From Streptomyces katrae (GTDB lineage Bacteria; Actinomycetota; Actinomycetes; Streptomycetales; Streptomycetaceae), in contig NZ_CP020042.1 of the NCBI RefSeq assembly GCF_002028425.1, forward strand, positions 682,001 through 746,000: a stretch of 64,000 bases of DNA, written 5' to 3'. Both the position numbers and the translations under genes were made by a program. Each line of letters opens with the position of its first letter. Position 1 is the stretch's first letter. Shown one piece after another: positions 7,526-63,300 of this stretch. The notes beneath the pieces are model-generated. The model was not told the origin of the DNA. It did not search any database and saw only the letters and a program-made list of their open reading frames with translations.

Positions 7526-7615
7526 CAGAAACCGCGTCAAGGGCCCGGAGATCACCTTTGGATATAGCGCGGGGCAACGGGAGATACGGTCGAGGACGGG
7601 GGCTTGACCCCCAAA

Positions 7616-7631: not shown

Positions 7632-7735
7632 TAGTCGTGGTACGCGGTCATGACGAAGCCGAAGAGCAGGCCCCGCATCCCGATCCGGGTGCTTTTCGCC
7701 CGGCGGCGGCCTCTGCAGAACGACAGGAGACGTAC

Positions 7736-8832: not shown

Positions 8833-10341
<1,509 letters not shown>

Positions 10342-33391: not shown

Positions 33392-34204
33392 TCAGCCACG
33401 GGCGAAAGCCAGCATGTGGGCCGAGGAATCCGTCAGGGCCGGGTATGGCTCGGCGACACGTGCAGCAGCGAGCGCCGCCTCGTACATGGGGGTGCCGATC
33501 AGGTCGATGCCCGCGTACTTCGTGATCGCCTTGACCGCGACCCAGCCCGGCCCCTCCACCCCGTAGACGGTGTGCTCGGCGAGCCCTGCCTCCGTCAGCT
33601 CTTCGCGGAGCTCGGCGGAGGTCTGGAAATAGGCGTGGGTGAACCCGCGGGAACCGGAGTAGCGGCCTTCGTCGAGGGTGGTGCGCACACCGTCCTGGAT
33701 GGCGCGCTCGGCGATGCCAGTCGTGGCAATGTAGTCAAGCAGCGGGCTGTAGCGGCTGATCACGGCTGCGGCGAGGAGGCCTCCGGGCCGCAGGACGCGG
33801 CGGGCCTCGCGCAGGGCGGCGAGCCGGTCGGACTGTTCATGCAGGTGGTAGAGCGGGCCTAGGAGCAGGACGACGTCGAAGGAGTCGTCGGCCGCGGTCA
33901 GGGTCCGGGCGTCGCCAAGTTCGGTGGTGACGCCCGGGATTTCGGCGGCCTGGGCGATGTGCTTGGCGACGGGGTCGATGAGGTGCACGGTGTGGCCGTC
34001 CTCGGTGAGCCAGCGGGCGTGGGCGCCGGGCCCGCCGCCGACGTCGAGGATCCTCGCGGGTGCGGGTGGCAGATGCCGGCGTAACAGCTCCCGGGTGCGT
34101 TCCAGTTCGAGCATGCCGGTGGCCGTGGTGTGCAGGCGTCCTGCTTCGTCGGACTGGTCGTAGAAGGTGATGATCTCCGGGCGAACGGGCTGGAAACTGG
34201 ACAT
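33392..34204 (-). CDS. SAM-dependent methyltransferase (class I)
   Basis: 270 residues. Rossmann motif I is RILDVGGGPGAHARWLTEDG (residues ~55-70), motif II VHLIDPVAKHI, acidic TELGDARTLTAADDSFDVVL for the adenine pocket, and LLLGPLYHLHEQSDRLAALR with VLRPGGLLAAAVIS. Resembles small-molecule or UbiE-like methyltransferases; the substrate cannot be deduced. Monocistronic, flanked upstream by a perfect hairpin. ATG at 34204 preceded by AAGGGG. Confidence 0.88.
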   Translation of the reverse strand: MSSFQPVRPEIITFYDQSDEAGRLHTTATGMLELERTRELLRRHLPPAPARILDVGGGPGAHARWLTEDGHTVHLIDPVAKHIAQAAEIPGVTTELGDARTLTAADDSFDVVLLLGPLYHLHEQSDRLAALREARRVLRPGGLLAAAVISRYSPLLDYIATTGIAERAIQDGVRTTLDEGRYSGSRGFTHAYFQTSAELREELTEAGLAEHTVYGVEGPGWVAVKAITKYAGIDLIGTPMYEAALAAARVAEPYPALTDSSAHMLAFARG

Positions 34205-40152: not shown

Positions 40153-41145
40153 TCAGCCGTTCGGCTGGCTGTCCTGGCTGGCTTCCCGGTGGCGGCGCAG
40201 GGCAAGCAGCGCGCCGCCGCCCGCGCTGATCAACAGTCCGGCGCCGGCGAGCAGCCATGAGGTGGAGCCGCCGCCGGTCTGGGCGAGGGAGCCCTTCGGG
40301 GTGGGGGAAGCGATGCTTGACGCGGTTTCGATCGGCTGCGGAGCAGCCGAGGCCGGCGTGGTCGCGGAGGGGGTGGGCGTGCCGGTCGTGGCGGGGGTGG
40401 TCGGGGTCGGGCTTCCCGACGCAGTGGCCGGGGTGGTCGGTGCGGTGGTGGGCGGGTTGGTCGGCTGGTCCTTCTTGGTGTTGGTGAAGGCGCCGGTGGT
40501 CTTCTCGCCGGGCTTGGCGGTGATCTTCACTGGGGTGGAGTTGAGCTGGTAGCCGTCGGGGGCCTTGGCCTCGGTGGCGGTGTAGGGGGTGCCGGTGCGG
40601 GAGGAGACGTCGAGCTTGGCGGTGGCGGTGCCGTCCTTGCCGGTGGTGAGCATGAGCGGCTTGCCGCCGCCGGCCTGTGGGCTGATGTTGATGACGGCGC
40701 CGGCGAGCGGCTTGCCGGTGTCCCTATCCTTCTTAGTCACCGTGATTTCGGCGAGCTTGAACGGGTCGACGACGGTGAGCTTGGCGGTCTGACCGGGGGT
40801 GACGACGATGTCCTGGTCCGGGGCCAAGTCGTGGATCGGGCTCCCGGAGTTGCTTTCCTTGAGCCGCCACACGCCCGGGGTGACGCCCTCGAAGCGCAGG
40901 ATGCCGTCCTGGCCGGTCTTGCCCTGAAGGGCCTTGGTGCCGTTGAGGGTGTCGAGCAGGGAGAACTCCGCCCCGGCCAGGAGGTCGCCGCCGGGGTCCT
41001 TCTTCGTGATCTCGATGCGGCCGGACTGCGGTTCGGGGGCTTCGGCCCAAGCGGACGGTGCCCAGGTCAGGGTGGTGGTGGCGAGGGTGGCTGCGGCGGC
41101 GACGGCTGCCGGTGCGGTGCGGCGAGAAGTGGTGCGGGTACGCAT
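40153..41145 (-). CDS. Sortase-anchored SpaA-type surface protein
   Basis: 330 residues. Signal peptide 1-~34 (TTTLTWAPSAWAEAPEP). Two prealbumin-like SpaA folds: GRIEITKKDPGGDLLAGAEF...SLLDT and LAEITVTKKDRDTGKPLAGA, each with the Lys typical of isopeptide-bonding Cna-B domains. A long Thr/Pro stalk follows, then the class-E sortase signal LAQTG near residue 293, a membrane span (WLLAGAGLLISAGGGALLAL) and an RRHRE tail. Attached to peptidoglycan by a housekeeping sortase encoded elsewhere. Upstream of it on the same strand is the IS1182-interrupted gene, 70 bases away. Confidence 0.9.
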   Translation of the reverse strand: MRTRTTSRRTAPAAVAAAATLATTTLTWAPSAWAEAPEPQSGRIEITKKDPGGDLLAGAEFSLLDTLNGTKALQGKTGQDGILRFEGVTPGVWRLKESNSGSPIHDLAPDQDIVVTPGQTAKLTVVDPFKLAEITVTKKDRDTGKPLAGAVINISPQAGGGKPLMLTTGKDGTATAKLDVSSRTGTPYTATEAKAPDGYQLNSTPVKITAKPGEKTTGAFTNTKKDQPTNPPTTAPTTPATASGSPTPTTPATTGTPTPSATTPASAAPQPIETASSIASPTPKGSLAQTGGGSTSWLLAGAGLLISAGGGALLALRRHREASQDSQPNG

Positions 41146-45218: not shown

Positions 45219-48200
45219 TCACCGGAACGGAGTTGTGGTGCGGGGCAGCTCAATGCAGGCGACCTCGTGACCGTAGACGACCATGAGTCTGGGGCCGTGA
45301 ACGGCTACCGCTCGGACCGGAAGCGGCAGATAGCAGCGGTGGACCAACTGACCGGTGGCGGGGTTCCAGACGATCGCTGTGCCGTCACTGTCGGCAGTGA
45401 CGGCCAGAGGTCCGTCGGGGCCCTCCGCCGTGGCAACCGCGGTCACCCAGCCGGTGTGGTCAGTGAGGGTGTGGAGTCGGGTGCCGGTGGCGGGGTTCCA
45501 GACGATCGCGGTGCGGTCGCGGCTGGTGGTAATAGCGAGGGGCCCGTCGGGGCCTTCCACCGTGACGACTGCGGTGATCGAGTCGGTGTGGCCGGTGAGG
45601 GTGTGGAGTCGGGTGCCGGTGGCGGGGTTCCAGACGATCGCGGTGCGGTCGCGGCTGGTGGTAATGGCGAGGGGCCCGTCGGGACCTTCCACCGTGACGA
45701 CTGCGGTGATCGAGTCGGTGTGGCCGGTGAGGGCGTGGAGTCGGGCACCGGTGACGGGGTTCCAGACGATCACGGTGCCGTCACCGCCGCCGGCGATGGC
45801 CAGGAGTCCGTCCGAGCTGCCCACTGTGGCAACTGCGGTGATCGAGTCGGTGTGGTCGGTGAGGGTGTGGAGTCGGGTGCCGGTGGCGGGGTTCCAGACG
45901 ATCGCGGTGCGGTCGCAGGTGGTGATGGCGAGGGGCCCGTCGGGGCCTTCCACCGTGGCAACCGCGGTCACCCAGCCGGTGTGGCCGGTGAGGGTGTGGA
46001 GTCGGGTGCCGGTGGCGGGGTTCCAGACGATCACGGTGCGGTCGTGGCCGGTGGTGATGGCCAGCGGTCCGTCGAGGCCCTCCACCGTAGCAACCGCGGT
46101 CACCCAGCCGGTGTGGCCGGTGAGGGTGTGAAAGCGATCGCCGACGGCGGGGTTCCAGACGATCACGGTGCCGTCGCCACCGGTGGTGATGGCCAGCGGT
46201 CCGTCGAGGCCCTCCACCATGGCAACCGCGGTCACCCAGCCGGTGTGGCCGGTGAGGGTGTGAAAGCGATCGCCGACGGCGGGGTTCCAGACGATCACGG
46301 TGCCGTTGCGGCCGGCAGTGACGGCAAGGGGCCCGTCGGGGCCCTCCACCGTGGCAATTGCGCTCACCCACCTGGTGTGGCCCGTGAGGGTGCGGAGGCG
46401 GGCACCGGTGACGGGGTTCCAGACGATCACGGTGCGGTCGTGGCCGGTGGTGATAGCCAGGGGCCCGTCGGGGCCCTCCACCGTGGCAACCGCCTCTACC
46501 CACTCGGTGTGGTCGGTGAGGGTGTGGAGTCGGGTGCCGGTGGCGGGGTTCCAGACGATCACGGTGTGGTCGCGGCTGGTGGTGATGGCGAGGGGCCCGT
46601 CGGGGCCTTCCACCGTGGCAACCGCGGTGATCAATTTGGTGTGGCCGGTGAGGGTGTGGAGTCGGGCACCGGTGACGGGGTTCCAGACGATCACGGTGCC
46701 GTCACCGCCGCCGGCGATGGCCAGGAGTCCGTCGGGACCTTCCACCGTGGCAACCGCGGTCACCCAGTCGGTGTGGCCGGTGAGGGTGTGGAGTCGGGCA
46801 CCGGTGACGGGGTTCCAGACGATCACGGTGCCGTCACCGCCGCCGGCGATGGCCAGGGGCCCGTCGGGACCTTCCACCGTGGCAACCGCGGTGATCGAGT
46901 CGGTGTGGTCGGTGAGGGCGTGGAGTCGGGCACCGGTGACGGGGTTCCAGACGATCGCGGTGCCGTCACTGCCGCCGGTGATGGCCAGGGGCCCGTCGGG
47001 ACCTTCCACCGTGGCAACCGCGGTCACCCAGCCGGTGTGGTCGGTGAGGGTGTGGAGTCGAGAGCCGGTGACGGGGTTCCAGACGATCGCGGTGTGGTCG
47101 CGGCTGGTGGTGATGGCGAGGGGCCCGTCGGGACCTTCCACCGTGGCGACTGCGGTGATCGAGTCGGTGTGGTCGGTGAGGGCGTGGAGTCGGGTGCCGG
47201 TGGCGGGGTTCCAGACGATCACGGTGCGGTCGCTGCCGCCAGTGATGGCGAGGGGCCCGTCGGGGCCTTCCACCGTGGCGGCCTCGGTCACCCAGTCGGT
47301 GTGGCCAGTGAGGGTGTGGAGGCGGGCGGGGTGGGTGAGGCGGGTTGCCCACGCTGGGGTTGGCGGGACTGTTGTGCCGAGCGGTTGCAGGTGGGTGATG
47401 GTGTGTGTGAGGTCCGGCTGCTGCCAGGAGGTGGCGTCGAGGGCGAGGAGGTTGCGGCGGACCTCGATCTCGTGGCGGCGGGAGTCGTAGGCGGTGGTGG
47501 TGCGGTAGATGTGCGCGTGGAGCCGTGCCTGCTGGTTGCGGGCGTGGTGGAGGTGGGGAATGAGGGTGTCGGGGTCGGCGTGTAGCAGGTAGGCGGGGTC
47601 TTCGAGCAGCCGGTCAAGGGAGCTGTCGGCGGCCGTTCGGGCGTGGTCGGCGGCATGCCGCAGGAGGTAGGGGTGGGCGTGCTGCCACTGCGGGGTGCCG
47701 GCCGGGGTGGTGGGGATTGTGCCTAGGAGGGCGTGGTGGAGGGTGGCGGGGTCGGCGTGGGGGCGGGTGTGGTCGGCAAGAGCCTGGTGGAAGTAGCGGT
47801 AGAGGAGGCGGTGGTCGGTGTCGGGGGTGGTGCGGAGGTAGAAGGCGATCTTGGTGAGGGCGTGGCGGGTGTCGGCGAGTTGAGGGGCGGGTCGGCCGGG
47901 GGCGGGAGGTTGGTGGGCGAGGGCAGTGGCATGGAGGAGGTCAAGGGGCATGCCTTGCCCGCGGGCGTGGCCGAGGACGTGGAGGAGGGGGCGGATCCAC
48001 GGGTTCTTGGCGGCGAGTTGGCGGGTGTGGACGCCGAAGACTTCGGTGACGGTGCACGGCGGGTCGAAGGTTGCCTCATCGGGGGTGATGCGCAGGTGGT
48101 CGGCGTAGAGGGCGGCCACGAGGAAGGCGCCGTGGTCGCTGTAGTCGGCGAGGCGGTCGGCGATGTGGCGCAGCCGGTGACGATCGTGGCGGGGCAGGAG

Positions 48201-49733
48201 TTTGCGCAGGTAGGTGTCGAGGTCGTCGGCGAGGGTGCGGCGGTCGTCGGGGGTGGCGGGGTCGGTGTCGAGTACGGCTTCGGGGTGCATGGTCAGATGG
48301 CGGTGGAGGGCGGGCAGGGTGTCCCACCAGGGGCGGGTGCCGACGAGGACGCGGCAGCCGCCGTCGTGCGTGGTGAGCGGGAGGAGGAGTTCGTTGAGGA
48401 CTTCGGCGGGGTCCGCGGTCTCGTCGAGGGCGTCGAGGATGACTAGGGTGTCGTCGGCGGTGTTGAGTGCGCGGACGAGGTCGGCGGTGGTGGGAGAGTC
48501 CGTGCGGTGGCCGTCCTGTTGCTGCTCGTGGAGTTGGCGACGCAGGGAGTCGGTGACGGCTTGGAGGGTGAGCTGGCGGGCGTGGACGGCCAGCACGTGC
48601 TTGGGGCGGCGGGGTGCGAAGGTGTCGACGGCGCGGGCGACGCGGTCGGTGAGCGGGTCGAGTTCGGGGTGGAGCAGGCAGGTGGTGACGCCGAGGAGGG
48701 CGGACTTGCCGCTGCCGGGGCCGCCGGTGACCACCAGCAGCCGGTTTCCTGGTTCGGGGCCGGTGTTCTCGGTCCATTGCTGGATGCGCCGCAGGTGGGA
48801 GGTGCGGCCGGAGAAGAGGACGTCGGTGAAGTGGGGTTCGCCAGCGGCACGGGTGGCGAAGTGCAGCGGGTCCAGGCCCGGTGAGCAGGTGAGGGCGAAC
48901 TCGCGCAGCAGCGGGTTCACCCCGCCCAGCAGGGCGGCCTGCGGGTTGTTGCTGTGGGCGGGGTTGGGGAAGAACGCGGGCGTCTCTACGGCGGTGCCCG
49001 GGAGGGGGGTGTGCACGACGTCCTCGCCGGGGTGCCCGCAGGCCAGGTCCGCGGCGGCGAGCCGGTGGTTGATCGCCTGGGCGAGGGTGGAGAGGGGCAC
49101 GTACTGCTGGATGGGGCTGATGTCGAGGTCGCCGTCGACGAGTTGACGCAGGGCCTCGGCGGTGGCGGTAGTGAAGCGGGCGCCGTAGGTGGCCTTGTCG
49201 CTCGCGCAGGCCCCGATGACCCACACGCTCCGCTCACCGTCCTGTCGGCGGCGGGTGGCGAGGTCGGTGAGCTGCTGCTGGACGACGGCCTGCCCGGCCC
49301 CGCACACGTCGAGCAGGAACAGCACCGGCCGGCCGCTGTCGTACGCGGAGTTCTCGGCTTCTTCAAGCAGAGTGCGGGTGCTGACGCAGGTCCGGTCCAG
49401 CTGGCTGGTACGGGAGTCGCCGCCGGCGGTCGCCAGGTAGAGAGTGCCGGTGCGCGGGCTGGTGAGGCCGTGGCCGGTGAAGTGCAGGATCAGCGGCTCG
49501 TCCGCTCCAGCGTCGTCCTGCAGATCCTCCCAGGCCCGGATGAGCGTGTCCTTGGCACATTCGAGCAGGGCTTCCCCGGTAGAGACGCCGGCCAGGACCA
49601 GGGCCGAGGCCAGTTCCTTGGCGGCCGCCTCGACGGCCGGCAGGCTCGCGAGCGGGGCGACGCCGTCGGCCTGGTCCTCCTCGCTGACGAACTGCTCGAA
49701 GTGCCCGACCCCTGCCACCAGCGCCCTGGCCAA
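45219..49733 (-). CDS. Caspase-like peptidase / STAND NTPase / WD40-repeat protein
   Basis: 1504 residues from TTG 49733 (GAGAGGAAG upstream). Residues 1-~240 form a caspase-like (C14) domain: His88 in LILHFTGHGLTSPRTG and Cys144 in VLFLLDVCGAGQAVV. Next is a STAND/NACHT-like NTPase: Walker A VVTGGPGSGKSALLG (res 335-349), Walker B TLVILDALDETADPAE (430-445), then helical winged region. Residues ~804-1463 are 15 WD40 repeats of 44 residues (LHTLTGHT..VTAVATVEGP + DGPLAIT...VIVWNP) plus one degenerate blade. Expected to sense an invasion signal through WD40, oligomerise with NTP and activate proteolysis; this is family inference. Transcribed after the alpha/beta hydrolase gene, 123 bases upstream. 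Confidence 0.9.
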   Translation of the reverse strand: MARALVAGVGHFEQFVSEEDQADGVAPLASLPAVEAAAKELASALVLAGVSTGEALLECAKDTLIRAWEDLQDDAGADEPLILHFTGHGLTSPRTGTLYLATAGGDSRTSQLDRTCVSTRTLLEEAENSAYDSGRPVLFLLDVCGAGQAVVQQQLTDLATRRRQDGERSVWVIGACASDKATYGARFTTATAEALRQLVDGDLDISPIQQYVPLSTLAQAINHRLAAADLACGHPGEDVVHTPLPGTAVETPAFFPNPAHSNNPQAALLGGVNPLLREFALTCSPGLDPLHFATRAAGEPHFTDVLFSGRTSHLRRIQQWTENTGPEPGNRLLVVTGGPGSGKSALLGVTTCLLHPELDPLTDRVARAVDTFAPRRPKHVLAVHARQLTLQAVTDSLRRQLHEQQQDGHRTDSPTTADLVRALNTADDTLVILDALDETADPAEVLNELLLPLTTHDGGCRVLVGTRPWWDTLPALHRHLTMHPEAVLDTDPATPDDRRTLADDLDTYLRKLLPRHDRHRLRHIADRLADYSDHGAFLVAALYADHLRITPDEATFDPPCTVTEVFGVHTRQLAAKNPWIRPLLHVLGHARGQGMPLDLLHATALAHQPPAPGRPAPQLADTRHALTKIAFYLRTTPDTDHRLLYRYFHQALADHTRPHADPATLHHALLGTIPTTPAGTPQWQHAHPYLLRHAADHARTAADSSLDRLLEDPAYLLHADPDTLIPHLHHARNQQARLHAHIYRTTTAYDSRRHEIEVRRNLLALDATSWQQPDLTHTITHLQPLGTTVPPTPAWATRLTHPARLHTLTGHTDWVTEAATVEGPDGPLAITGGSDRTVIVWNPATGTRLHALTDHTDSITAVATVEGPDGPLAITTSRDHTAIVWNPVTGSRLHTLTDHTGWVTAVATVEGPDGPLAITGGSDGTAIVWNPVTGARLHALTDHTDSITAVATVEGPDGPLAIAGGGDGTVIVWNPVTGARLHTLTGHTDWVTAVATVEGPDGLLAIAGGGDGTVIVWNPVTGARLHTLTGHTKLITAVATVEGPDGPLAITTSRDHTVIVWNPATGTRLHTLTDHTEWVEAVATVEGPDGPLAITTGHDRTVIVWNPVTGARLRTLTGHTRWVSAIATVEGPDGPLAVTAGRNGTVIVWNPAVGDRFHTLTGHTGWVTAVAMVEGLDGPLAITTGGDGTVIVWNPAVGDRFHTLTGHTGWVTAVATVEGLDGPLAITTGHDRTVIVWNPATGTRLHTLTGHTGWVTAVATVEGPDGPLAITTCDRTAIVWNPATGTRLHTLTDHTDSITAVATVGSSDGLLAIAGGGDGTVIVWNPVTGARLHALTGHTDSITAVVTVEGPDGPLAITTSRDRTAIVWNPATGTRLHTLTGHTDSITAVVTVEGPDGPLAITTSRDRTAIVWNPATGTRLHTLTDHTGWVTAVATAEGPDGPLAVTADSDGTAIVWNPATGQLVHRCYLPLPVRAVAVHGPRLMVVYGHEVACIELPRTTTPFR
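45345..47324. repeat. 15 tandem 132-bp WD40-coding repeats
   Basis: The minus strand carries 15 consecutive units of 44 codons (one of 43), with repeat-to-repeat protein identity mostly above 80% and long identical DNA stretches. Variation concentrates at DWVTE/DSITA/GWVTA and at the xxxDxT positions, i.e. the blade surface. Such homogeneity indicates continual recombination between units. Confidence 0.92.
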
Positions 49734-49856
49734 CCCAGCTTCCTCTCCCGATCCCGCACCGGCGCTCGACCGGGCAGCCCCTTGTACCTCTTGCCCCGGC
49801 TCGCCGGTACCGAGCGTGTGAACACGGCCCGGGCCGATGCGCGACTTGAAGTGGCG

Positions 49857-50741
49857 TCAGGACGAAATGTACGGCGCGACGGCGGACGCGAGCAGCCCGT
49901 TGGCGAGATAGCCGCCGAACCCGTGGAAGCCGATCCCGGTGTCGCAGGGCTCGTCCGCGTCGACGGGGAACACCACTTCGAGCTTCGGCGGCACGGCGAC
50001 CAGGTCGCCGAAGTCGGCGAGATTCACCCACCGGCCCACCCCGGCCGGCTTCGCGCCGCGACCGGCACGCAACGGCGGGTCCAGCCGCCGGGCCAGCACG
50101 GGCACGCGCAGCGGGGAGCCGACGGTCACCAGCAGCTCGACCTCCAGCTCGGGGTGCGCGTGCAAGGTCTCGTAGGTGACGTACGAGCCGAGCGAGTGCG
50201 CGATCACCACCGACGGAGCCTCCCGCCGGATCACCTCCGCCACCCGCTCCCGCACTAGCGGACGCCGCTGCGGCCACGCGGTGTACGCCTCCGCCTCGCG
50301 GAGATTCGCCACGATCGCGAGCTCCAGACGGCGGATCGTCTGCTCCTGCATCACCCGCGTCAGGCGTGAGCCGCGCTCGCGGACCATCCAGCTGAGCAGC
50401 TGCCGCAGCGGCGCCAGCCCGACATTCTGGGGATCCTCCGGAGCGAACGCCCCTGCCGCCTCCAACCACTCGGCCACCACCACCCGCTCCCCCGGACCAA
50501 GGCTCTCGAAGTCCGCCCCCGCGCCCGCCGACTGCGCCTGCTCGGGCAGATCCGTACGCAGCAGGTCCGCGTAGTAGGCCATCGCCATCTCAGGCGCCAC
50601 GACACCCAACCGGCCCAGACTCTCCGCAAGCCGCGGCCGCAGCGGCGCCAACCGCTGCTCCGCCGCCCGCTCCGGCGACGCACCCGGGACATGATTGAAG
50701 ATTCCGTGCACCACGACGACCTGCGCCACAACTACCCCCAC
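49857..50741 (-). CDS. Alpha/beta hydrolase (lipase/esterase-like)
   Basis: 294 residues from GTG 50741 (an internal GTG a few codons later is possible). Begins VVVVHGIFNHVPGAS, the oxyanion HG strand of the fold. Nucleophile Ser183 in SVVIAHSLGSYVTYETL, acid Asp in NLADFGDLVAVP, and His in GIGFHGFGGYLANGLL. No signal peptide. The first gene before the caspase-NTPase; in conflict systems such hydrolases can be effectors acting on lipids or other esters, which is inference here. It overlaps divergently by 50 bases with the fragment at 50691. Confidence 0.85.
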   Translation of the reverse strand: MGVVVAQVVVVHGIFNHVPGASPERAAEQRLAPLRPRLAESLGRLGVVAPEMAMAYYADLLRTDLPEQAQSAGAGADFESLGPGERVVVAEWLEAAGAFAPEDPQNVGLAPLRQLLSWMVRERGSRLTRVMQEQTIRRLELAIVANLREAEAYTAWPQRRPLVRERVAEVIRREAPSVVIAHSLGSYVTYETLHAHPELEVELLVTVGSPLRVPVLARRLDPPLRAGRGAKPAGVGRWVNLADFGDLVAVPPKLEVVFPVDADEPCDTGIGFHGFGGYLANGLLASAVAPYISS

Positions 50742-50987
50742 AACAGCAGCCCGTACCGGTGCCCGGGCCTCTCGTCCCTGGGCCTACCCACGCCGCCGGT
50801 CCTGCCACACCCCCAGGACGAAGGCCCCGACCAAGTCCAGCGGGTGCTGCGCAACCAGGTGCGACCCGGCCACGCGCCGATGCGGGTGGAGGAGGTCCAC
50901 CTCGTCGACGTCACCGCGGACGCGACGGCGAAGACGATCACCTGGGAACACCTCGCGGCGATCCCCCTCGGCGGCACGGTCCAGTGA
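50691..50987 (+). pseudogene. C-terminal fragment of a 2H phosphoesterase, opposite strand
   Basis: Open frame of 98 codons. The recognisable part starts near SSLGLPTP (degraded HxSLGY motif) and continues VQRVLRNQVRPGHAPMRVEE, VHLVDVTADATAKTITWEHL, AAIPLGG, the normal C-terminus of 2'-5' RNA ligase-like proteins. The N-terminal half is missing here but a matching 3'-truncated N-terminal half lies at 54913-55488 on the other strand. Antisense to the read-through tail of the zinc-ribbon gene. Confidence 0.6.
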
Positions 50988-53375
50988 GCGGCGGCGCCGT
51001 CCGGTGCCCGGGTCACGGCCGCTGGAGCGAGTGGCGACATCGGCGGCGTAGGCGGTCCAGTCGCCAGCGGCGGCCTGCTGCCACTGCACGGCGACCTGGC
51101 GGTGGATGCCGAGCATGCGGGCCAGGACCGCCGCGGGTACCTGGCGGGCGAGGGTGAACAGCGCAGTGGCGCGGTCCTGGCGCGGCCTCACTCCAAGAGC
51201 GCGCAGCCGGGCAACGAGTTGGTCGGCGCTGAGCGGCTGTCCGGGCAGCCGCCCGGGGAACAGCCAGGCGCCGGGGTCGTTCAGCAGGCCGGTGCCGCGC
51301 CGGGTGGCAAGCAATTCCTCCACCAGGGCGTCCAACGGGGCGGGCAAGTGGATCGGGCGGTCGCCGAACCGGACCATCAGTGTCTGCCCGTCGCGGTGCA
51401 GGCGTGCGGTGGTCAGCAGCCGGATGGTGTTGGCATGCTGGGCGTACAGCAGCAGGAACAGGCCGGCGACGCGGTCGGCGACCGCCGGGCCGTCCTCGTG
51501 CAGCAGTCGGCGCGCGATCGCCCACCGGCGGTCCTCGTCATGGGGGCCACAGGGGCCCTGCCAGCGGGTGGCGGGGGCGGACAGGTCGTGGGCATGGCGG
51601 TGGGTCAGTGCCCAGCGGACGAAGTTCGCGGTGCGGGAGGGGTAGGTGGCGTGGTGGACGAGGAAATCGTCCAAGTCGCCCTGGGCACAGGAGCCGAGGG
51701 TCAGACCGCGGTCGGTGAGGTGGTTTAGGAGTTGGACGGCGGCGGCGACGTGCACCCGCACGTTCTGGTCCTGCGCGGTGGTCGTCGCCGCTGCCTCGGT
51801 CCTTCGGCGCAGTCGGCGCAGGTGGTGCCAGGTCGCGTAGCCGTGCAGGATCCGCCGCTGCCCCGGATCGGTGAGGATGGCGGTCTTCTCCTGAACCCAG
51901 CGTTCCAGGGCGGCCAGGTGCTCGTCGCGGGCCGGGAGGAGGCCGGTGGCCGTCAGCAGGGCCCGCAGGTGGTGGACGGTCTTGCCCGGTGGGAGGGCGT
52001 CGAGGACCTCGTGGCTGACAGGTCGAGGGTCGCGGGACAGGTCGGCCAGCAGGGTGCGAACATTCGGCTTCGACAACCAGGCCATGGCGTGGTCGGGGCG
52101 CTCGACCGCGACGAGCGCCTGCCGCAGCGGCGCCAGGTGTCCCGTCTGGCCCTCTGGGCCGAGGAGTTGGCCGGCTACCTTGTCGACCGCGCACCGCTGG
52201 CAGGGCTCGGTGCCGAACTGCCACGTCACCTGGCAGGTCGGGCAGCGGTCCCAGAACCCGGGGTCGGGGTTGACGCAGCGGGCGCACAGCGGGACAGCCA
52301 GGGTGCCGCCCTTGAGCGGCGCGACCTCGGCGCAGGTGGAGCAGCGGATGTAGCGGGAGCGACAGCTCCGGCACCACGGGGCGCCGGTGGTGCGCGAGAT
52401 CGTGCACCGGGCTGCCTGAGCGCACATGGAGCACTGCCGGGCCTCGTGCGGGCTGCAGCGATGGCACCACCGGCCGCCGTCCGCACGGGACTTGATGACT
52501 CTGCGCTGTCCGCAGCCGGTGCACGCCTCCCGGTTGGCCGGGTCGTTACGAAAGCACTGCCCACACACCGGCCCTGCGTCGTCACGTGTGCAAATCCTGC
52601 GTGTCTTCCCGCAGCGCGAGCACTCCTGGGAGCGGCGCTGTTCCTCGCAGCGCGAGCAGATCCACGGCCCTTCCCGTCGGCCCCGCAGGTACTCGCTCGT
52701 CCCGCAGCCGGCACAGCAAGGCCGCTTCACCACGCCTCCGCCAGCGTCGGCGAGGGCGCCGAGGAAGGCGAGGACGGTGGGCGTGGGTGCGAGGTGGCCG
52801 TCGCCGGTCAGCAGAGCGGGCCGGTCCAGGACCGCCCAGCACACCCGGCGCCATACCGAGGCGCGCTGCGAGCAGCCGGCCAGGGCCCGCTCGACCTCCG
52901 CACGACCCAGCGCCGGATCGAGCGCGGCCACCAGGTCGACCAGCTCCGCGGTCGGGTCCTCCTCCAGCGGGCACGCGGAGCAGCGAGGAGTGCCGCAGCG
53001 GACGCACCGCTCCTTCGGGCGGGAACACCTGCCGCAGGCCCACAGCCCTCCCCGGCGGCTGGCGGGCGTGCGCGTCTCGCACCCGCAGTCGCAGCAGCGC
53101 GGCGCCGACAACTGCTGGGCGCCGGCCTTCGACAGCGCGGCCAGCAGCTTGCCGACCGACCAGATCGACGGCGAGCGGCCGGTGGCCATGACCTGTGGGT
53201 TGTCGCGCAGTTCCCGGGCGACGCGGCGCCGGGTCGCCGGCCCGCCCAGCACCTGCCCCGCCACCTCGCGGATCCGCTCGGCGGGCAGACCGCGCTCGAT
53301 CCGCGCGAGCTGGTGGACGACCGCACCGAGCGGGTCGTCCTCGACCAACCGCTCCAACTCCAGGTCCTCGTCCAT
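50784..53375 (-). CDS. Multi-zinc-ribbon protein with degenerate tyrosine-recombinase-like C-terminus
   Basis: 863 residues from ATG 53375, overlapping the HTH stop as TGATG. Residues ~100-460 contain about nine Cys-x2-Cys pairs (CCDCGCETRTPASRRG, CSRCGKTRRICTRDD, CTGCGQRRVIKSRADG, CSMCAQAARC, CSTCAEVAPL, CPTCQVTWQFG). Residues ~600-780 resemble a tyrosine recombinase: GLFLLLYAQHANTIRLLTTA mimics the first-Arg helix and LARQVPAAVLARMLGIHRQ the HxxR region, but the catalytic Arg/His/Tyr set is not present. The last ~80 residues (from ~51030) are the antisense of the 2H fragment, so the natural end is lost. Probably an accessory recombination protein in a three-gene mobile cassette. Confidence 0.75.
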   Translation of the reverse strand: MDEDLELERLVEDDPLGAVVHQLARIERGLPAERIREVAGQVLGGPATRRRVARELRDNPQVMATGRSPSIWSVGKLLAALSKAGAQQLSAPRCCDCGCETRTPASRRGGLWACGRCSRPKERCVRCGTPRCSACPLEEDPTAELVDLVAALDPALGRAEVERALAGCSQRASVWRRVCWAVLDRPALLTGDGHLAPTPTVLAFLGALADAGGGVVKRPCCAGCGTSEYLRGRREGPWICSRCEEQRRSQECSRCGKTRRICTRDDAGPVCGQCFRNDPANREACTGCGQRRVIKSRADGGRWCHRCSPHEARQCSMCAQAARCTISRTTGAPWCRSCRSRYIRCSTCAEVAPLKGGTLAVPLCARCVNPDPGFWDRCPTCQVTWQFGTEPCQRCAVDKVAGQLLGPEGQTGHLAPLRQALVAVERPDHAMAWLSKPNVRTLLADLSRDPRPVSHEVLDALPPGKTVHHLRALLTATGLLPARDEHLAALERWVQEKTAILTDPGQRRILHGYATWHHLRRLRRRTEAAATTTAQDQNVRVHVAAAVQLLNHLTDRGLTLGSCAQGDLDDFLVHHATYPSRTANFVRWALTHRHAHDLSAPATRWQGPCGPHDEDRRWAIARRLLHEDGPAVADRVAGLFLLLYAQHANTIRLLTTARLHRDGQTLMVRFGDRPIHLPAPLDALVEELLATRRGTGLLNDPGAWLFPGRLPGQPLSADQLVARLRALGVRPRQDRATALFTLARQVPAAVLARMLGIHRQVAVQWQQAAAGDWTAYAADVATRSSGRDPGTGRRRRSLDRAAEGDRREVFPGDRLRRRVRGDVDEVDLLHPHRRVAGSHLVAQHPLDLVGAFVLGVWQDRRRG

Positions 53376-53725
53376 CAGCCGCCTCCCGTGATCCGGGCCC
53401 GCCTGGGCCGCAACGCCCCCAGCCCCGCCTCCGGCGCCGGCCCGCCGCCCGCCGCGGCCTTCTTCACCGGCCGGACGGCCGCCCCCTGGACGGTCACCGG
53501 CTCGATCAGCTCGTCCATCCGGCACTCCAGAATGTCCAGCAGCGCCATCAGGATCCTCAGGCTCAGCCGCTCCGGGCGCTCGGCCACCAGCCGGTGGACC
53601 TGGCTGGTGGACAACTGGATGCCCCGCTCGGCGAGCAACGGCACCAGGTCGCTGGTGTGGAACAGGCCCCTGGTGGCCATGACGGTACGCAGGTGCCAGC
53701 GGTAGTCGAGCTTGGCGTTGGCCAT
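53375..53725 (-). CDS. Xre-type helix-turn-helix protein of the recombinase trio
   Basis: 116 residues from ATG 53725, 5 bases after GGGAG. Cro/C1 HTH at ~15-70: LRTVMATRGLFHTSDLVPLL, IQLSTSQVHRLVAERPERLS, LRILMALLDILECRMDELIE. C-terminal tail is Ala/Pro/Arg-rich. Sits between the integrase and zinc-ribbon genes with overlaps, so the three are one transcription unit. Likely a DNA-binding accessory or regulator. Confidence 0.85.
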   Translation of the reverse strand: MANAKLDYRWHLRTVMATRGLFHTSDLVPLLAERGIQLSTSQVHRLVAERPERLSLRILMALLDILECRMDELIEPVTVQGAAVRPVKKAAAGGGPAPEAGLGALRPRRARITGGG

Positions 53726-53752
53726 CACAACTCCCTTCCTCCACAGACGGCT

Positions 53753-54843
53753 TCACAAGAACGCCGGCGCGAGAGCGCGCTGCAGGGCTGATTTCATGAA
53801 GTCGTCACTGACGTGGGTGTAGATCGCGGTCGAGCTGTCATTCTCGTGGCCAACCTGCCGCTGGATGAACATCCGGTCCACCCCGTCCTCGGTCAGGTGC
53901 GTGACGTAGGAGTGCCGCAGCGAGTGCGGGACCAGTTCCGCGGGCAGACCCAGGGCGTCCCGGTAGGCGGCGAACTGCTCGTTCACGGAAGCCGGCTGCA
54001 ACCTTCCGCCCCGCTCGGTCACCCACAGCGCCCGCTGCCCGGGGAAGCCGAACCTCGGGCGGACGTTGAGCACGTAGTCCCCGACCGCCTCCACGGCCCA
54101 GGCCATCACCGACAGCACGTTGCGCCGCCGCGGCGGCTGGCCCCGCTTCGCCTTCCCGTACCGAACGTGGAGCGTGCCGTAGCCACCGAAGCCAGGAGCG
54201 TTCGGGTTGCGGCCGAAGTCGACAAGATCCAGCCGACAGCACTCAGTGCGGCGCAGCCCCCAGGCGTAGAGCACCTTGAACAAGGTGGCGTCCCGGTAGG
54301 CGGCCAGCGCGCCCTTGCGGCCCGCCCGGACCGCCCGCTCCACCTGGTCGTCGGCGTAATCGAGGAACGCCTGGAGTTCCTCACGGTGAACGGCCTTGCC
54401 TCGGGGTCGCCCTCGTAGCCCTGAAGGTGCGGCAGGGTGTTCCACTCGTGGCAGATCGCCACCGGGTGCGTGCCGAACGCCTCCTCGCACGCCGCTGCCC
54501 ACCCGTAGCGGGGGTCGGTGAGGAATTCGGTGAACAGCTGCACCGTGCCCTGGTAGTTGCGCACCGACGACGGCGCGAGGCGCTGTTCGGCCGCCAGCTG
54601 GGCGGACCACTCGTCCATATGGACCGGCGCCCACTGCCATGGGTAGTCGTTGACGAACCCGAGGAAGCGGCGGATCAGGTTCTCCCGGTCGCTGATCGTC
54701 TTCGCCTGCAGGCGGCGGGCGCGTTGCTGGTTGCGCCAACCACGCAGCATCGCCTCGAACATGGCGTCCTCAGGACGTAGTTGGACGACCCCGGAGACCA
54801 GCTCCAACCGGGCCGACCCGGCCAGACCGACCGTACACACCAC
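53753..54843 (-). pseudogene. Tyrosine recombinase/integrase with a single-base frameshift
   Basis: N-terminal SAM-like domain in one frame (MFEAMLRGWRNQQRARRLQA, SSVRNYQGTVQLFTEFLTDP, AFGTHPVAICHEWNTLPHLQ) up to DPEARPFT. At ~54385 one C appears missing (ACC CGT GAG became ACC GTG AG), and the catalytic domain continues in the next frame: REELQAFLDYADDQVERAVR, YAWGLRRTECCRLDLVDFG (first Arg), VPHSLRHSYVTHLTEDGVDR (HxxR), VGHENDSSTAIYTHV (His and Tyr). All catalytic residues present but in two frames. GTG 54843 or the ATG of MFEAML starts it. A sequencing error is possible. Confidence 0.85.
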
Positions 54844-55651: not shown

Positions 55652-57806
55652 TCAGCTCCGCTCGTCGATCAGACGGTTGATTCGCGCGAAGATGTCGTCG
55701 CGCCCGACGATCGGGTGCTCCGGTTCCCTCAGGAACCAGTTGGCTTGCCTTGGATCGCTGTGCCGGGGCAGCTGCGTCGAGCCGACCAGCAGTTCCTGGA
55801 GCTGGTGCTTCCCCTGTACGGAAGGATAGGCCCCCATTGCCTGGGCGGCAGCCATCCTCACCCGCGCAGCCTCAAGCTCCCAGTGCCCCGAGGTATGCCC
55901 TTGCTCGCACTCGAGGGTCGCCTCGGGGCCGTCGACGCGCACCATGCGCACCGGGTCGTCCTGCGAGCCGCGGAGGGGTCTGAGGCTCTTGGCGGTCACG
56001 ATCTGGATCCGGTCGGACTCGATGATGAGGGGGCCGGGTGCGACCGCCGGTGCAATGGCCTGCTCGCGGGCCTGCTCCGGGTACGCGTCGAGGAATTGGG
56101 CGAGGCGTGCGGCTGCGGCCCGCATCGGGGAGGGGCCGGGGCCGGGGCCGGGAGGCTCGATATCGTCGGCGAGGAGGCTGGCGCCGATGCGCCCGCCGTA
56201 CTGGTCGTGGGCCTCGTTGAAGATGCTCCACAGGGGTGTGCTCCGCCGACCGGCGGGGTCGTAGCCTTGCCCGGTCTCGGTTAGTGCTCGGTCGATCTCG
56301 TCGACGATCCGCGGCTCCCGATCCGCCGGCCCGGAGAGGGCCTCACGCAGCTCGGTGACCGGCACGTCCCGGGGTACGCGGTCGCCGCCATGTGTCCGGG
56401 CGAACAGGAGCAGGGACAGCGTGCACAGGTCTACGGATGCCCCGCTGCCGTGTTGCCATGGCTTGTCGACAAGGATGCAGGCCGCCTCGACGAGGTACTG
56501 CACATCGGCCTCGACCTCGGCGAGCCGCGGCACGACCTCCGTCACGTCACCCTTGAGGTTGAACAGTCTCAGCCCCGACACCTTCCCTTCCTCGGCTACG
56601 GGGCTGCAACGACAGACGGTGATCGGATTATTTCCATCAGCGTCTTCGGGCTTGTGAAGAAGGCGTGAGGCTACCTCCGCCCCGTCGGGGACGCCCGCGT
56701 CCCACGACACCGACGCGCCGCTGAACGCGGCGGACACCTCGGTGTCAAAAGTCCCCCGCCGGAAACGGTTGAGCTCTTCCCGGCGGCTCGCGGCCACCCG
56801 ACGTAGGCGTGCGACTGTGTCATGGCGTCCGTGGCAGTTCGGGGTGCACTCGGCAGTCATGCCCGGCAGGCTGCCGGTTACTTTTACGATTTCGCCGCTC
56901 GGGCTGCCTGTGAAGGCGAGTACCTGGTTGTACTCGGCGACCTCGCAGTCGTCGCAGGCATCCGTCATCTGCAAGTCGAGGCGCCCTGATGCTCTTTCAG
57001 GGCCGTCGAACCAGATTCGGCATCCTCGCTCCCCGTACGCGCAGGCACAGGTGCGCATGTCCTCCTTGACCGCGATTCCACAAAGCGGGTGCGTCAGGTG
57101 CTCGATGATCACGTCGTGGTCCGTCCAGCGTGCACGGGCAAAGGTGAGACGCAATCCGTAGGTGCTGGTGTGCTTGGTGAAGCCGGCCATGTCCAGCCAG
57201 TTGGCTGCGGAACGGAACATCGGCAGCCTGCGCAGCAGGGCACTTCCGAGGGCTGCTGCCTCCCGCCAGGCTTCTTCATGCCAGCGGTGCTCGTGCGCGA
57301 AAGCCCGTTCCTCCGGCGTCAGACCCGGATACCTGCAGGGGGACGATTCTCCGTGCTCAGCCGCGGTCAGGTGCCTGATCTCTTCTGCCTGGCTCCAGGC
57401 CCGACCGGGAACACCTTCGAGCCGGAGGCTTGCCGTAGTTCCGTGGAGTCCGATGTCGAGCCTGCCGTGGCCGGCGCCGAGCACGCGTAGACCGCTAATC
57501 CCGCGAAGGTCGTCCTTGCCACCGGACGAGAACAGCCCCCAGGCGATCAGCTCGGCCAGGCCTTCGGGGTCGGAGTCTGCCGCGAAGCGGATGACGGGAC
57601 GCCGTTCGTCTGGGATGACTCGCACGATGCGAAGCGGTCGGGTGGTGTACGTGGTACTCCAACAAGGCCCGCAGGACCTGTCCTTCGAGGAACGCCTGAT
57701 CGCCTCGGGCGGAGGGGATGAGGGGGCTTCCTTCTGGAAGCCGATCAATGCGTTCCTTGGCGCCGGCCCAGGTTTCCCCTGTGTAGCGGCGGCACAGGTC
57801 GACCAC
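55652..57806 (-). pseudogene. Large protein of unrecognised family, apparent frameshift near 57,650
   Basis: N-terminal piece from GTG 57806: [20 protein letters not shown] + [26 protein letters not shown]. At ~57650 the frame must change to continue [20 protein letters not shown], aligning with the intact paralogue at 58242. The second frame then runs to 55652: [20 protein letters not shown], Cys clusters [20 protein letters not shown] and [14 protein letters not shown], and an extra ~300-residue C-terminal part ([60 protein letters not shown]). About 715 residues if corrected. Function unknown. Confidence 0.6.
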
Positions 57807-58241
57807 TTCGCTCTTGGGCCCGACAGTCTCCTTCGTGCGCTGCCGGATCCCAGCGCGGGAAAGAGCTGCTGCCAGCGAGAACGACAGTCATGCACGGTAC
57901 GGGAGAACACTGGAGGGCACCTGGGGCTTTCGACACGCTGCGCCATCGATCCGTACAGGCGCACGACGAGGGTTCCCTCACCCGGACCGGACGGTAGACG
58001 AGCCGTAGCGGACAACGCAAGCACTGGCCCCCATCCGGGTGAAAGGCGCCTCCGGAATCGCCACGCAGGCACCCGTCGACTCCGAGGCCCGCTAGATTTC
58101 TGCTGCGGCTGACCACCGCTCCCCGGAGATGCATCGGCCCTTCTTCTCTCCACGCTCGGGTGAACCGGTCCCCAGTAGCCCCCCGCGCATCCTTTCGGAT
58201 CTCAATTCCGCACGTCCTGGGCCGAGACGTTCAGGAGACCC
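57807..58241. other. Divergent promoter region between the paralogue pair
   Basis: About 435 bases. The minus-strand frame is open up to 58153 but is not conserved in the paralogue and looks like noise. Expected to hold both promoters; no clear palindrome seen. Confidence 0.4.
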
Positions 58242-59932: not shown

Positions 59933-60325
59933 ATGTCCGACTTCGTCGAGTTCAACTTTCCCGACGGACAAGCCGTGCTCATCGAGGTCTGGCCTACCGA
60001 CGAAACCAAGGTCGGCATCGATGCCGAATACCAGCTCCCCGGCAGCGCCGGGGTCGAGGCAGTCGGCCTCGGTGCCCGCATTGTCGAGCAGGCAGGCAGG
60101 ACGCTTAGCGAGGCGTTCGCTCCACTGGTCCCGGTCCTCTCAGGTTTGCACGATCAGGTCAGGAGTCTGCCACGGAAGCCCGAGGAGCTGACAGTCGAGT
60201 TCGGCGTCAAGCTGACCGCCGGTCTGAAACTGGCCGTGGTGAGTGGCGGCGAGGCCAGCTTCAACGTCTCTGCCACGTGGCGACTCAGCGACGACGACCG
60301 CAACACCACCTCCGTCGCTGAATGA
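59933..60325 (+). CDS. Trypsin-co-occurring domain 1 protein (CU044_2847 family)
   Basis: 130 residues, ATG 7 bases after GGGGGAAA. MSDFVEFNFPDGQAVLIEVW, then IVEQAGRTLSEAFAPLVPVL and LPRKPEELTVEFGVKLTAGL + KLAVVSGGEASFNVSATWRL match the Trypco1/CU044_2847 pattern (edge-strand protein with 'VEFGVKL'). The domain is known to sit next to trypsin-like peptidase-NTPase genes in predicted conflict systems. The next gene 16 bases on is exactly such a protein. Molecular role undetermined; perhaps an adaptor or substrate. Confidence 0.88.
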   Translation: MSDFVEFNFPDGQAVLIEVWPTDETKVGIDAEYQLPGSAGVEAVGLGARIVEQAGRTLSEAFAPLVPVLSGLHDQVRSLPRKPEELTVEFGVKLTAGLKLAVVSGGEASFNVSATWRLSDDDRNTTSVAE

Positions 60326-60341
60326 AACGGAAGCGGACGCC

Positions 60342-63300
60342 ATGTATCCGGTCTCCGCGGATGATTCCCTGCGCACCGCCTTCGTCTCCTTCCTGAAACC
60401 GGACGGCGCTGTAGTCGGCGGCGGCGTTTTGGTCACCGACGAGAACGCCGTCGTGTCCGTCCTCACCTGCGCCCATGTCATCAACATGGCATTGGGCAGG
60501 CATCAGTTCGCGAGCGACAAGCCCACTTCCGACTCGGTGACCGTGGCCTTTCCGTCCGTTCCCGGCCAACGCTGTTCCGCCCATGTGACCGGATGGTGGC
60601 CGGCACGTTCTCTCCGCGATGAGGAAGGGACGCTCTCTGGCACGGAGAGACGATGGCGTGGAGACATTGCCACGCTCCGGGTGACTGACGCGCTACCCAA
60701 GCAAGTACGGCCAGTGCGCCTCGCAGCTCCATCCCTCGGACAGTCGGCATGGAGCTGGTTCGGCAGCGGCGAACCGACCTCCGTTGTTCGGGTGCACGTG
60801 TCCGCAGTGGCTGACGACTGGCTGGTCCTCAGCGGCGCCCCCACGGGACATGCCGTCCAGCCCGGCTACAGCGGCAGCCCTCTGTGGGACAGAAAGCTGC
60901 AGGCAGTCGTCGGGATTCTCGTCAGCGCACATCACTCGCTGCCATACAGTCGGCTGACCACGGCGGACATCACCCGGCAGAGCTACGCGATCCGGGCAGA
61001 CATCATCGCCGAGCGCTGCCTAGCACACAGTCCAAAGCAACGTCTCCTTCCTGCCGACGTGCAGTCCCTGCTCAACGCACAGCGCAGTGCGGCGCGAGCC
61101 TTCCCGTATCGTGCTGTCGGCCTCCACGGCCGTGATCCCTCGGCGGTCTACGTACGCCAGCAGGTGTCCACATCCGATAATGCCGCTGCGGCATTGGCCA
61201 CCGACCCCGAGCATGCCGGCGCGGCACCCGACCCCGTGGTCCTGAGACCGAAGACAATCGAAGAGGCCCTTGCCACACACCGGCACCTGTTCCTGACGGG
61301 CGTTGCAGGTTCCGGAAAATCCACTCTGACCCTTCAATTAGCGACCCGAGCCGTCGTGCTGCCAAGGGATGGCGCCGCTGCCGCTACCCTCCTGCCCGTC
61401 CGGTTACTGGCGAGGGATCTGGCAGCCCGTCCCGGAATGCGCCTTCTCTCCGCGGTGTCAGATGCCCTCGGGGCGAGCCTTGTGAGGTTCCTGGCACGCG
61501 ACCTCGATCCGCGACTGTTGGAACGGCGCGTGCCGGGATCGCGCTGGCTCTTGGTCATCGATGGCTTGGACGAGGTCACCTCGCGAGCAGATCGCGCCGA
61601 CCTAATCGAACGCCTACGGGTCTTCATGGAGGAGGAGCGCGAGTACCACGTTCTGATCACCAGCCGTCCCTTACCTGACGACGAACGCCGAACCTGGGAC
61701 AGTGACAAGGAGCTCACGCATTACGCCATCGAGCCTTTCCAGCATCATCAGCGCGCCCAGTTCGCACATTCCTGGTTCGCGGATGACGTGGATCTTGCCG
61801 AGTCATTCCTTCGCGAGCTGGCCGCATCCCGGCTCGAGGAGGAGGCATCCGTCCCGCTCCTTGCCACGGTCGCAGCAGTTGTGTTCGCTGAGGCGCCCAG
61901 CCAGCCTCTTCCCGCAAGCCGCTTCGACCTGTACGAACGGTACTTCTCCCATCTGTACGACTCCCGAGCCCGCCAGCTACTCAGTGACACGCAGTCCCGG
62001 CTCGCTGGCCGACCGATGGCGGAGAAGCTGGCTCAGGAACTGGTCGAAGCACGAGTCGCACTGATCGAACACCTTGCACCGCTGGCCCTGAAAGCCCGGT
62101 CTCTGCTGTCCGAAGCCCTCCAATGGCTGGCCGACCGGGGCATCACTCCCACTCCGGCACCAGCGGACTGGGCCGAAATCGTTGGTTCAGTTCTCACGTC
62201 CACCGGGTTGCTGCTGCCAGACGGCGAAGGTCTCATCTTTGCCCACCACACCTTTGCCGAGCACATCTGCGACCTACTCGACGCCCGCCGCCTTCCGTCC
62301 CGATTCGATCCCGACGATCCGATTTGGTGGAAAACCCTCAGCCTTGCGTGCACGGACGGGGATCTCACAGCGCAGCGGACGATCCTCCACAGAGCACTGA
62401 TCAATAGCGACGCCTCTGAACTTCTCGACTGGCTGCTCGCGGGTAACGACATCGCCCGGGAGCTCGCTGCCGCACTGGTTTCACGTGGTGTTCGGGCGAC
62501 AGCAGGTCAGCATGAAGCCCTGGCTCGCACCTTCGACTTCTGGCTGTGGCGGGCATTGCGCGGCGGCAACGGCCGGTTTGTAAACCAAGTGATCAGTAAC
62601 CAAGTGGTCGGTGCACTGAGTCTGCTGCGCAGCCTTGATCATCCCCTCCAACGAGTGATCCACGGCGCTGCGGAGAACGCGGCCTTGCCCGACGTCGTGC
62701 GCGAGGCCGCCGTGCACGATCTACTGCGCTCGGGCGAGCCGCATAGATCCCGCGGCCTCGCCCTTTTCCGCCGTTTCGCCTGCGATCCACAGCTCGCGGG
62801 TGCAGTACGTGTCCGGGCGGCTCAAGCACTGGAGTTTGCAGGCGCTTTGCCGGCAGCGAGGGAAAGCCTCACTTTCCTGTCACAGGACGAGGCGTTCCTC
62901 CACGAGCATCACCGCAACATGGCCGAGCAGCTACTGAGCGACGCCCCCGGGTGGATCTCGCTACCTCACAGGCCAGCCGCCGGCCCCTCACCCATCGATC
63001 TACGCCCGATTCCAGCAGACCTATCCATCGAGGAGGAATATGCAGAGGACTTGAGCACCCCGCCGGGCTTCATGGAGTCCCCTCGCGACTCAGATCAGGT
63101 GGTGCCATGGTCCGCCGAGGCAGGTCTCCTGGACCTGCCCGTCGACATCTCTGCGCTTCTGTCTCTCTCTCCGACGGCGGATGAAGAAAAGGTGGCCGCA
63201 GCAGCAGTCCGGGCGGTGGCCGCAGATTTGTTCTGCATCCTGCGAGGGCAGTCCCCACCTGGCGCACGTCAGGCTGCAAGCGCATGGTCGCGGCTCGCGA

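Follow-up and report, generated by a model that had tools for sequence, protein, structure and literature searches.

The question raised by a 64,000-nucleotide stretch of the Streptomyces katrae genome (contig NZ_CP020042.1, positions 682,001 to 746,000; the whole stretch is referred to here as the window) is whether two adjacent genes, one encoding an alpha/beta-hydrolase and the other a 1504-residue protein that combines a caspase domain, a STAND NTPase and WD40 repeats, form a single system, and what such a system would do. Their linkage is strongly supported, both by searches in the two directions and by natural fusions. We give somewhat better than even credence to the reading that the conserved two-gene module is an NLR-like switch for immune cell death, whose caspase would probably activate the hydrolase, which would then damage lipids.

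Organisation of the gene pair

The two genes lie on the same strand with 123 nt between them and have the following features.

45219..49733, minus strand: whole caspase-STAND-WD40 gene, 1504 aa, TTG start
48954..49733, minus strand: caspase domain, residues 1–260 (NF047832 match, conserved dyad, predicted fold)
49470–49472 and 49302–49304, minus strand: caspase catalytic codons His88 and Cys144
47334..48986, minus strand: STAND NTPase and linker, about residues 250–800 (Pfam matches and motifs)
48702–48725 and 48420–48443, minus strand: NTPase motif codons, Walker A and Walker B
45345..47321, minus strand: 15 WD40 repeats, residues 805–1463, in units of 44 aa (132 bp), one of 43 aa (Tandem Repeats Finder (TRF), unit table)
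49857..50741, minus strand: alpha/beta-hydrolase gene, 294 aa
50193–50195, 50004–50006 and 49923–49925, minus strand: hydrolase catalytic codons Ser183, Asp246 and His273

The sequence-only reading of this DNA had described a hydrolase with an intact Ser-Asp-His set and a 1504-residue caspase/STAND/WD40 protein on one strand; both open reading frames (ORFs) are found at these places with conserved catalytic residues, and both genes are confirmed to be real and intact. The GC content at third codon positions of the two genes (0.89 and 0.90) resembles that of other ORFs in the window. The sequence GAGAGGAAG precedes the TTG start of the caspase-STAND-WD40 gene. The hydrolase more likely starts at codon 5 (GTG, about 50729), which would match the N-terminus MAxVVLVHG of its relatives. 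A simple scan of positions 49500–51100 revealed no terminator-like or sigma-70-like site. The pair had also been called a candidate inducible system, a description that found no support.

The best NCBIfam match of the caspase domain is NF047832 (EACC1-associated caspase) with 51.9 bits (E 6.6e-14) against a curated cut-off of 140 bits, and its Pfam score of 17.5 bits lies under the 21.4-bit cut-off. Neither His88 nor Cys144 varies across a 47-row alignment of caspase domains, and a Foldseek search with the predicted model of the domain (pLDDT, the predicted local distance difference test score, of 94.5) retrieved MALT1 (7.3e-8), procaspase-6 (1.4e-7) and caspase-8 (1.7e-7). The His/Cys dyad and the predicted fold are those of a caspase-like peptidase of clan CD, for which proteolysis is predicted. 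The NTPase region matches the Pfam families NPHP3_N (E 1e-10), AAA_22, NB-ARC, NACHT and nSTAND1, and carries a Walker A motif (GGPGSGKS at residue 337) and a Walker B motif (VILDALDE at residue 431). With this P-loop NTPase and the C-terminal repeats, detected by TRF as a 132-bp unit in 15.0 copies with 86% matches (45352–47328), the protein has the make-up of a STAND/NLR receptor and, by analogy with that family, would oligomerise.

Ser183 and Asp246 are conserved in 81 of 81 hydrolases and His273 in 78 of 81; Asp243 is conserved as well (80/81), and the naming of Asp246 as the catalytic residue is a choice. The best Pfam score of the hydrolase, 17.3 bits, is under the 26.3-bit cut-off. Because the Pfam scores of both proteins fall under their cut-offs, the hydrolase and caspase assignments rest on the conserved residues, the predicted folds and NF047832. 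Sequence searches against solved structures gave no significant relative for either the hydrolase profile (best E 0.17) or the caspase-NTPase part (best E 0.38). The predicted hydrolase fold is of the lipase type, with lipases tied with esterases and thioesterases in the fold ranking. Together with the Ser-Asp-His set it places the protein among the lipase/phospholipase-type alpha/beta-hydrolases, a lipid substrate being predicted from the fold alone.

Linkage of the two genes across genomes

A search that began from the hydrolase only yielded 127 confirmed candidates, from which the best 80 loci of named genomes were retained. A caspase-profile match lies within 3 kb of the hydrolase in 62 of the 80, at a median distance of 39.5 nt, with the caspase first in 38 loci, the hydrolase first in 16, a divergent arrangement in six and a convergent one in two; among these 62, the caspase of L052 is a fragment only, and that of L100 is a divergent match (E 6.5e-19). 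Three of the 18 loci without a caspase match (L062, L067 and L078) end at a contig edge and have WD40 sequence just upstream of the hydrolase. No caspase was found in the available flanks of another 13, all from Streptosporangiaceae, several of which share a similar set of neighbouring ORFs, and the remaining two (L096 and L102) have other neighbours. The Streptosporangiaceae loci L056 and L100 do carry a caspase. By family, 60 of the 80 loci belong to Streptomycetaceae and 15 to Streptosporangiaceae. Hydrolase relatives of Sphaerisporangium (L069, L070, L081, L085, L087, L090, L097 and L106) have neighbouring ORFs of similar sizes and no caspase; the L069 relative lies near a HAD hydrolase and a PhoD phosphatase.

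In the opposite direction, the caspase-NTPase part was searched in 199 same-genus genomes, S. katrae included. A hydrolase lies within 8 kb of the caspase-STAND match in 21 of 21 cases at E ≤ 1e-30, in 28 of 30 at 1e-20 and in 34 of 49 at the loosest cut-off; two caspase matches in one genome (G179) represent one duplicated pair. The two misses at 1e-20 (L123 and L124) match the NTPase and not the caspase profile. L126 (7180–10686, plus strand) encodes a true caspase-STAND protein which ends in a conflict-system GT4 glycosyltransferase and has no hydrolase. The reverse count from the hydrolase side in the 199 genomes gave linkage for 15 of 17 matches at 1e-25, 23 of 30 at 1e-20, 32 of 46 at 1e-15 and 34 of 104 at 1e-5. 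Ten of the 14 misses at 1e-15 were examined, and eight have a caspase by profile, including the single chain of L117, while L115 and L120 have none. The sequence-only reading had made its proposal depend on co-occurrence of hydrolase and caspase elsewhere, and on the counts within 3 kb and within 8 kb this expectation held.

Across the 199 genomes the hydrolase (E ≤ 1e-5) is present in 78 and the caspase-STAND part (E ≤ 1e-10) in 43, and a profile search found the hydrolase at E ≤ 1e-10 in at least 124 of 297 genomes of the family. All 13 best stretches of the family search outside the S. katrae genome contain a caspase match, several of them being contigs already among the 80; since whole-genome stretches overlap named loci (e.g., L146/L032, L147/L033, L152/L043 and L158/L064), these sets are not independent. 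Ten plasmid records were matched, two of which are 5.7 and 11.9 Mb long and hence not ordinary plasmids; all three of the plasmid loci inspected have a caspase, in three arrangements, and copies occur on linear plasmids. The plasmid copies and the patchy presence fit a mobile conflict system. On a plasmid of Streptomyces canus (NZ_CP108066.1, L133), the convergent hydrolase-caspase pair has two further neighbours, a gene with a CHAT domain and another alpha/beta-hydrolase gene in divergent orientation, which may form a protease-hydrolase pair of their own.

Gene trees were built from 61 rows, namely the window and 60 of the 62 linked loci, L105 and L076 being excluded as long branches. At least eight changes of arrangement are needed on either gene tree, although well-supported branches alone force only two or three per group. 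The pair therefore stayed together while its order was reshuffled. The caspase and hydrolase distance matrices of the 61 rows are correlated with rho 0.848, a value reached in 0 of 999 permutations, with shared ancestry not removed. From the density of Pfam caspase matches (85 matches of PF00656 in 61 genomes), the chance of finding a caspase within a few kilobases is well under 1%, as a rough estimate without a control set. PF00656 misses the window caspase in its own genome, and the Pfam caspase counts are therefore lower bounds.

These data bear on the most improbable explanation that we considered, namely, that the hydrolase restrains the caspase as a brake or immunity protein, or that the two genes are mere neighbours. 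A gene that shares an operon with a toxic enzyme often encodes the antidote, which speaks for a brake; however, a simple binding antidote would not need the catalytic set that is intact in at least 78 of the 81 hydrolases. Mere neighbourhood was rejected on the linkage counts, the gene order that was rearranged while linkage was retained, and the single-chain proteins described below.

Natural single chains containing the hydrolase

The hydrolase part of L117 was searched against long proteins only, and 17 clusters were returned. In seven of them (P0122–P0128) the hydrolase is C-terminal to a STAND-type NTPase, identified from precomputed domains in five, by Pfam rescan in P0125 and by similarity only in P0126. 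The N-terminus of P0125 was confirmed to be a SAV_2336 domain, and the source names of P0124, P0126 and P0128 say likewise. L117 itself encodes a STAND-hydrolase single chain at 7074–10463. In two clusters (P0129 and P0130) the hydrolase is C-terminal to a caspase, with both catalytic sets readable. The other eight (P0131–P0138) have it C-terminal to a trypsin, according to precomputed Trypsin_2 domains, which Pfam confirmed in all four that were rescanned (P0131, P0132, P0134 and P0135); several of these compact protease-effector proteins are from Streptomyces. All single chains retain the Asp, and all except P0128 retain the nucleophile Ser; for the long STAND chains no alignment column could be assigned to the His. 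Fusion of the hydrolase to two unrelated protease types and to an NTPase therefore fits an effector under protease or STAND control.

An alternative that we consider unlikely, if worth serious attention, is that the hydrolase is the effector without being cleaved: it would be recruited and switched on by the STAND oligomer, and the caspase would act in parallel or merely trim the complex. This would agree with the STAND-hydrolase chains P0122–P0128, in which the caspase region is weakly and partly matched and, in L117, looks degenerate by eye; moreover, with the hydrolase fused to trypsins too, a caspase-specific site cannot be universal. Against it, all 47 aligned caspase domains retain His88 and Cys144, so that catalysis is kept where the genes are separate in that set. 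It is plausible that the caspase acts before the hydrolase, as had been suggested initially.

Variation of the WD40 repeats

In the part of Paoletti et al. (PMC1805685) available to us, WD40 codons 7, 9, 25 and 27 of the Podospora proteins HET-D and HET-E, which flank the conserved codons 8 and 26, are reported to be under strong positive selection, and four test sites were fixed beforehand from that paper. Eight arrays and then, with a looser repeat pattern, 14 loci were tried, and five arrays had enough regular units, those of the window, L105, L152, L155 and L157. The L152 contig is identical with that of L043, whose array had yielded too few units among the first eight. The fungal codons 7, 9, 25 and 27 are presumably sites 10, 12, 30 and 32 of the present repeats, aligned on the conserved GH, V, D and W.

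In 14 of the 15 units of the window array, mean entropy is 1.34 at sites 10, 12, 30 and 32 versus 0.49 elsewhere, and 100 of 20,000 random four-site sets were as variable. The proportions of nonsynonymous and synonymous differences (pN/pS) are 0.312/0.189 at the four sites and 0.120/0.227 elsewhere. The most variable sites of this array are 43, 30, 9, 28, 32 and 10, and site 12 varies little. Random sets reached the variability of the four sites in 266 of 20,000 cases for L105, 1 of 5000 for L152, 0 of 5000 for L155 and 8 of 5000 for L157. In L155 the top four of the 44 sites in variability are precisely 10, 12, 30 and 32, while in L157 and L152 other sites rank equally high. At the four sites, pN exceeds pS in three of the five arrays and is below it in L105 and L157; elsewhere pN is below pS in all five. 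Unexpectedly, average variability at the four sites taken from the fungal receptors exceeds that of the remainder in all five testable arrays. Such variation may be general to young propellers, as the comparison was made without unrelated homogenised WD40 arrays as a control.

TRF detected an array of at least three copies in seven of 61 members; therefore, a homogenised array is the state of some members, and draft assemblies may lose such arrays. Recently amplified WD40 propellers tied to innate immunity are reported for bacterial STAND proteins in the accessible part of PMC9218822, so that WD40 amplification itself is already known.

The repeats bear on another alternative, which we regard as rather improbable: a system by which mycelial bacteria recognise non-self or counter plasmids, not directed at phages, in which the variable WD40 array would read self versus foreign after hyphal contact or conjugation. 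Streptomycetaceae and Streptosporangiaceae, which hold 60 and 15 of the 80 loci, are mycelial, and together with the copies on linear plasmids, the repeat homogenisation and the raised variation at the four sites of HET-D and HET-E, this is in line with such a role. On the other hand, a receptor of phage proteins would also show variation on the propeller surface, no genetic incompatibility is known, and homogenised arrays occur only in the minority of members noted above.

Comparison with known systems

The sequence-only reading knew of no described system with just these two parts, a statement that needs correction. In the accessible part of Kaur et al. (2020, PMC7159879), on the VMAP ternary conflict systems, the VMAP caspase always has a neighbouring alpha/beta-hydrolase gene, and the pairing of these two enzymes has therefore been in print since 2020, whereas the two-gene caspase-STAND-WD40 form without VMAP was not seen there. 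The window pair has in common with the VMAP systems an N-terminal caspase in a multidomain protein and an adjacent alpha/beta-hydrolase gene, and it differs by lacking the VMAP domain, with STAND-WD40 in its place. A VMAP locus, L113, contains a remote relative of the hydrolase (profile E 2e-10), a caspase-VMAP-C protein (Pfam), and AAA and TPR genes. Among the matches listed for the S. katrae genome, two VMAP-C domains lie at contig positions 5.20 and 6.13 Mb, more than 4 Mb from the pair at 0.73 Mb. No MoxR-vWA pair was detected by Pfam in eight further ORFs between 40156 and 63998, smaller ORFs being unscanned. Membership of the VMAP systems was rejected, as the VMAP-C matches listed are far away and none is in the pair; the caspase-hydrolase pairing is common to both.

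The EACC1-caspase two-gene pairs have, according to the same accessible text (PMC7159879), a constant N-terminal caspase followed by variable domains that include STAND NTPases. The window protein shares the succession of a caspase and a STAND NTPase, and its best NCBIfam match is the EACC1-associated caspase. EACC1 (PF19953) is absent from the S. katrae genome among the matches listed, versus at least 122 of the 199 same-genus genomes. Within 5 kb of the 85 PF00656 matches, EACC1 was found in at least 22 cases, the hydrolase in ten, both in none and neither in 53, among the EACC1 matches listed. Membership of this group was rejected, since no EACC1 match is listed in the genome and the caspase reaches only 51.9 of the 140 bits of the cut-off.

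Metacaspase-NACHT-WD40 proteins are described as widely distributed (Asplund-Samuelsson et al. 2012, PMC3501461) and have the domain order seen here; the alpha/beta-hydrolase partner is a feature of the window pair that the available part of that paper does not mention. The bacterial CARD-NLR systems, including LypABC, in which gasdermins are replaceable by phospholipases or endonucleases, share with the pair a protease, an NLR-like ATPase and a death effector, as far as the accessible text tells (PMC13236601). They use trypsin-like peptidases and a separate repeat-bearing NLR-like protein, whereas the window protein has the caspase, NTPase and repeats in one chain. With HET-D/HET-E (PMC1805685, as available) the window protein has in common a NACHT-type NTPase, a homogenised WD40 array and raised variation beside the conserved V and D of the repeats, the last as an average over four sites; the fungal proteins carry an N-terminal HET domain and have a proven incompatibility function, while the window protein has a caspase and no HET domain. 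The literature searched, which did not cover subscription journals and preprint servers and was available in part, contained no description of the two-gene caspase-STAND-WD40 and hydrolase form without VMAP. The two-gene module without VMAP and EACC1 appears to be new as a variant, and the pairing of a caspase with an alpha/beta-hydrolase itself has been known since 2020.

Genomic surroundings

The window corresponds to 682–746 kb of a 7.5-Mb contig in a genome of 8.06 Mb, and no tRNA was found in it. Near the pair are an insertion-sequence (IS) transposase and a tyrosine recombinase, the latter with a Phage_integrase match in Pfam (E 3.3e-22). Within the recombinase region (50784–54843, minus strand), a small ORF (53375–53728) reads like a helix-turn-helix protein in another frame, and the first 130 residues of the large ORF resemble a frame shadow. 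An 833-aa ORF (55652–58153, minus strand) has no Pfam match; its C-terminal end resembles, by eye, the start of a STAND domain, and it is possibly a truncated receptor. About 10 kb from the pair, a Trypsin_2 and NACHT protein (60243–64000, plus strand), which continues beyond the window end, is a second NLR-like protease. On the other side are a pPIWI_RE-matching protein (30842–32890, plus strand; PADLOC PprPIWI, E 3.3e-51), a mad2-like protein (33392–34204, E 1.6e-19) and a prealbumin-like (SpaA) repeat protein that bears an anchor motif of the LPXTG type (40153–41145, minus strand). The surroundings look like a defence-rich mobile region.

This setting is relevant to a role in developmental programmed death or housekeeping proteolysis, where the pair would regulate hyphal lysis in normal growth rather than defence. 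Streptomycetes lyse hyphae in development, and the hydrolase loci of Streptosporangiaceae that are free of a caspase would suit such a function, which we nevertheless judge very unlikely in view of the patchy distribution (78/199 and 43/199), the plasmid copies, and the adjoining recombinase and defence-type genes. The reading as a death switch is also supported by the defence-type genes in the window (pPIWI_RE and trypsin-NACHT) and by the WD40 site variation.

Proposed mechanism and its meaning

We propose that ligand binding to the WD40 propellers provides the sensing step, with a phage, a plasmid or a foreign hypha as the candidate trigger, that the STAND domain then oligomerises in an NTP-dependent manner, and that the clustered caspase is activated by induced proximity, as the families of these domains suggest. 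The caspase would in turn activate the hydrolase, probably by cleavage, a step to which the linkage, the single chains and the invariant catalytic residues point. Judging from its predicted fold alone, the hydrolase would act on membrane lipids and so bring about the death of the invaded compartment.

A bolder version, which we put forward as a doubtful possibility, is that the module could be a bacterial equivalent, in two genes, of the death receptors of fungi and animals: a caspase-NLR with a WD40 array repeatedly re-amplified and diversified at the four HET-D/HET-E sites. Its caspase would trigger a dedicated phospholipase, so that death would come by lipid cleavage instead of gasdermin pyroptosis, and the design would extend over mycelial actinomycetes and their plasmids. 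That caspases and alpha/beta-hydrolases cooperate in bacterial conflict systems was inferred by Kaur et al. (2020, PMC7159879). The present module shrinks this idea to two genes, which makes it directly testable whether a bacterial caspase activates a lipase-like effector. The repeat data predict that recognition specificity would reside in a few residues per WD40 blade, four of which are common to fungal allorecognition receptors. If this is true, bacterial immunity, pyroptosis-like death and self/non-self recognition in fungi would be connected by one receptor design.

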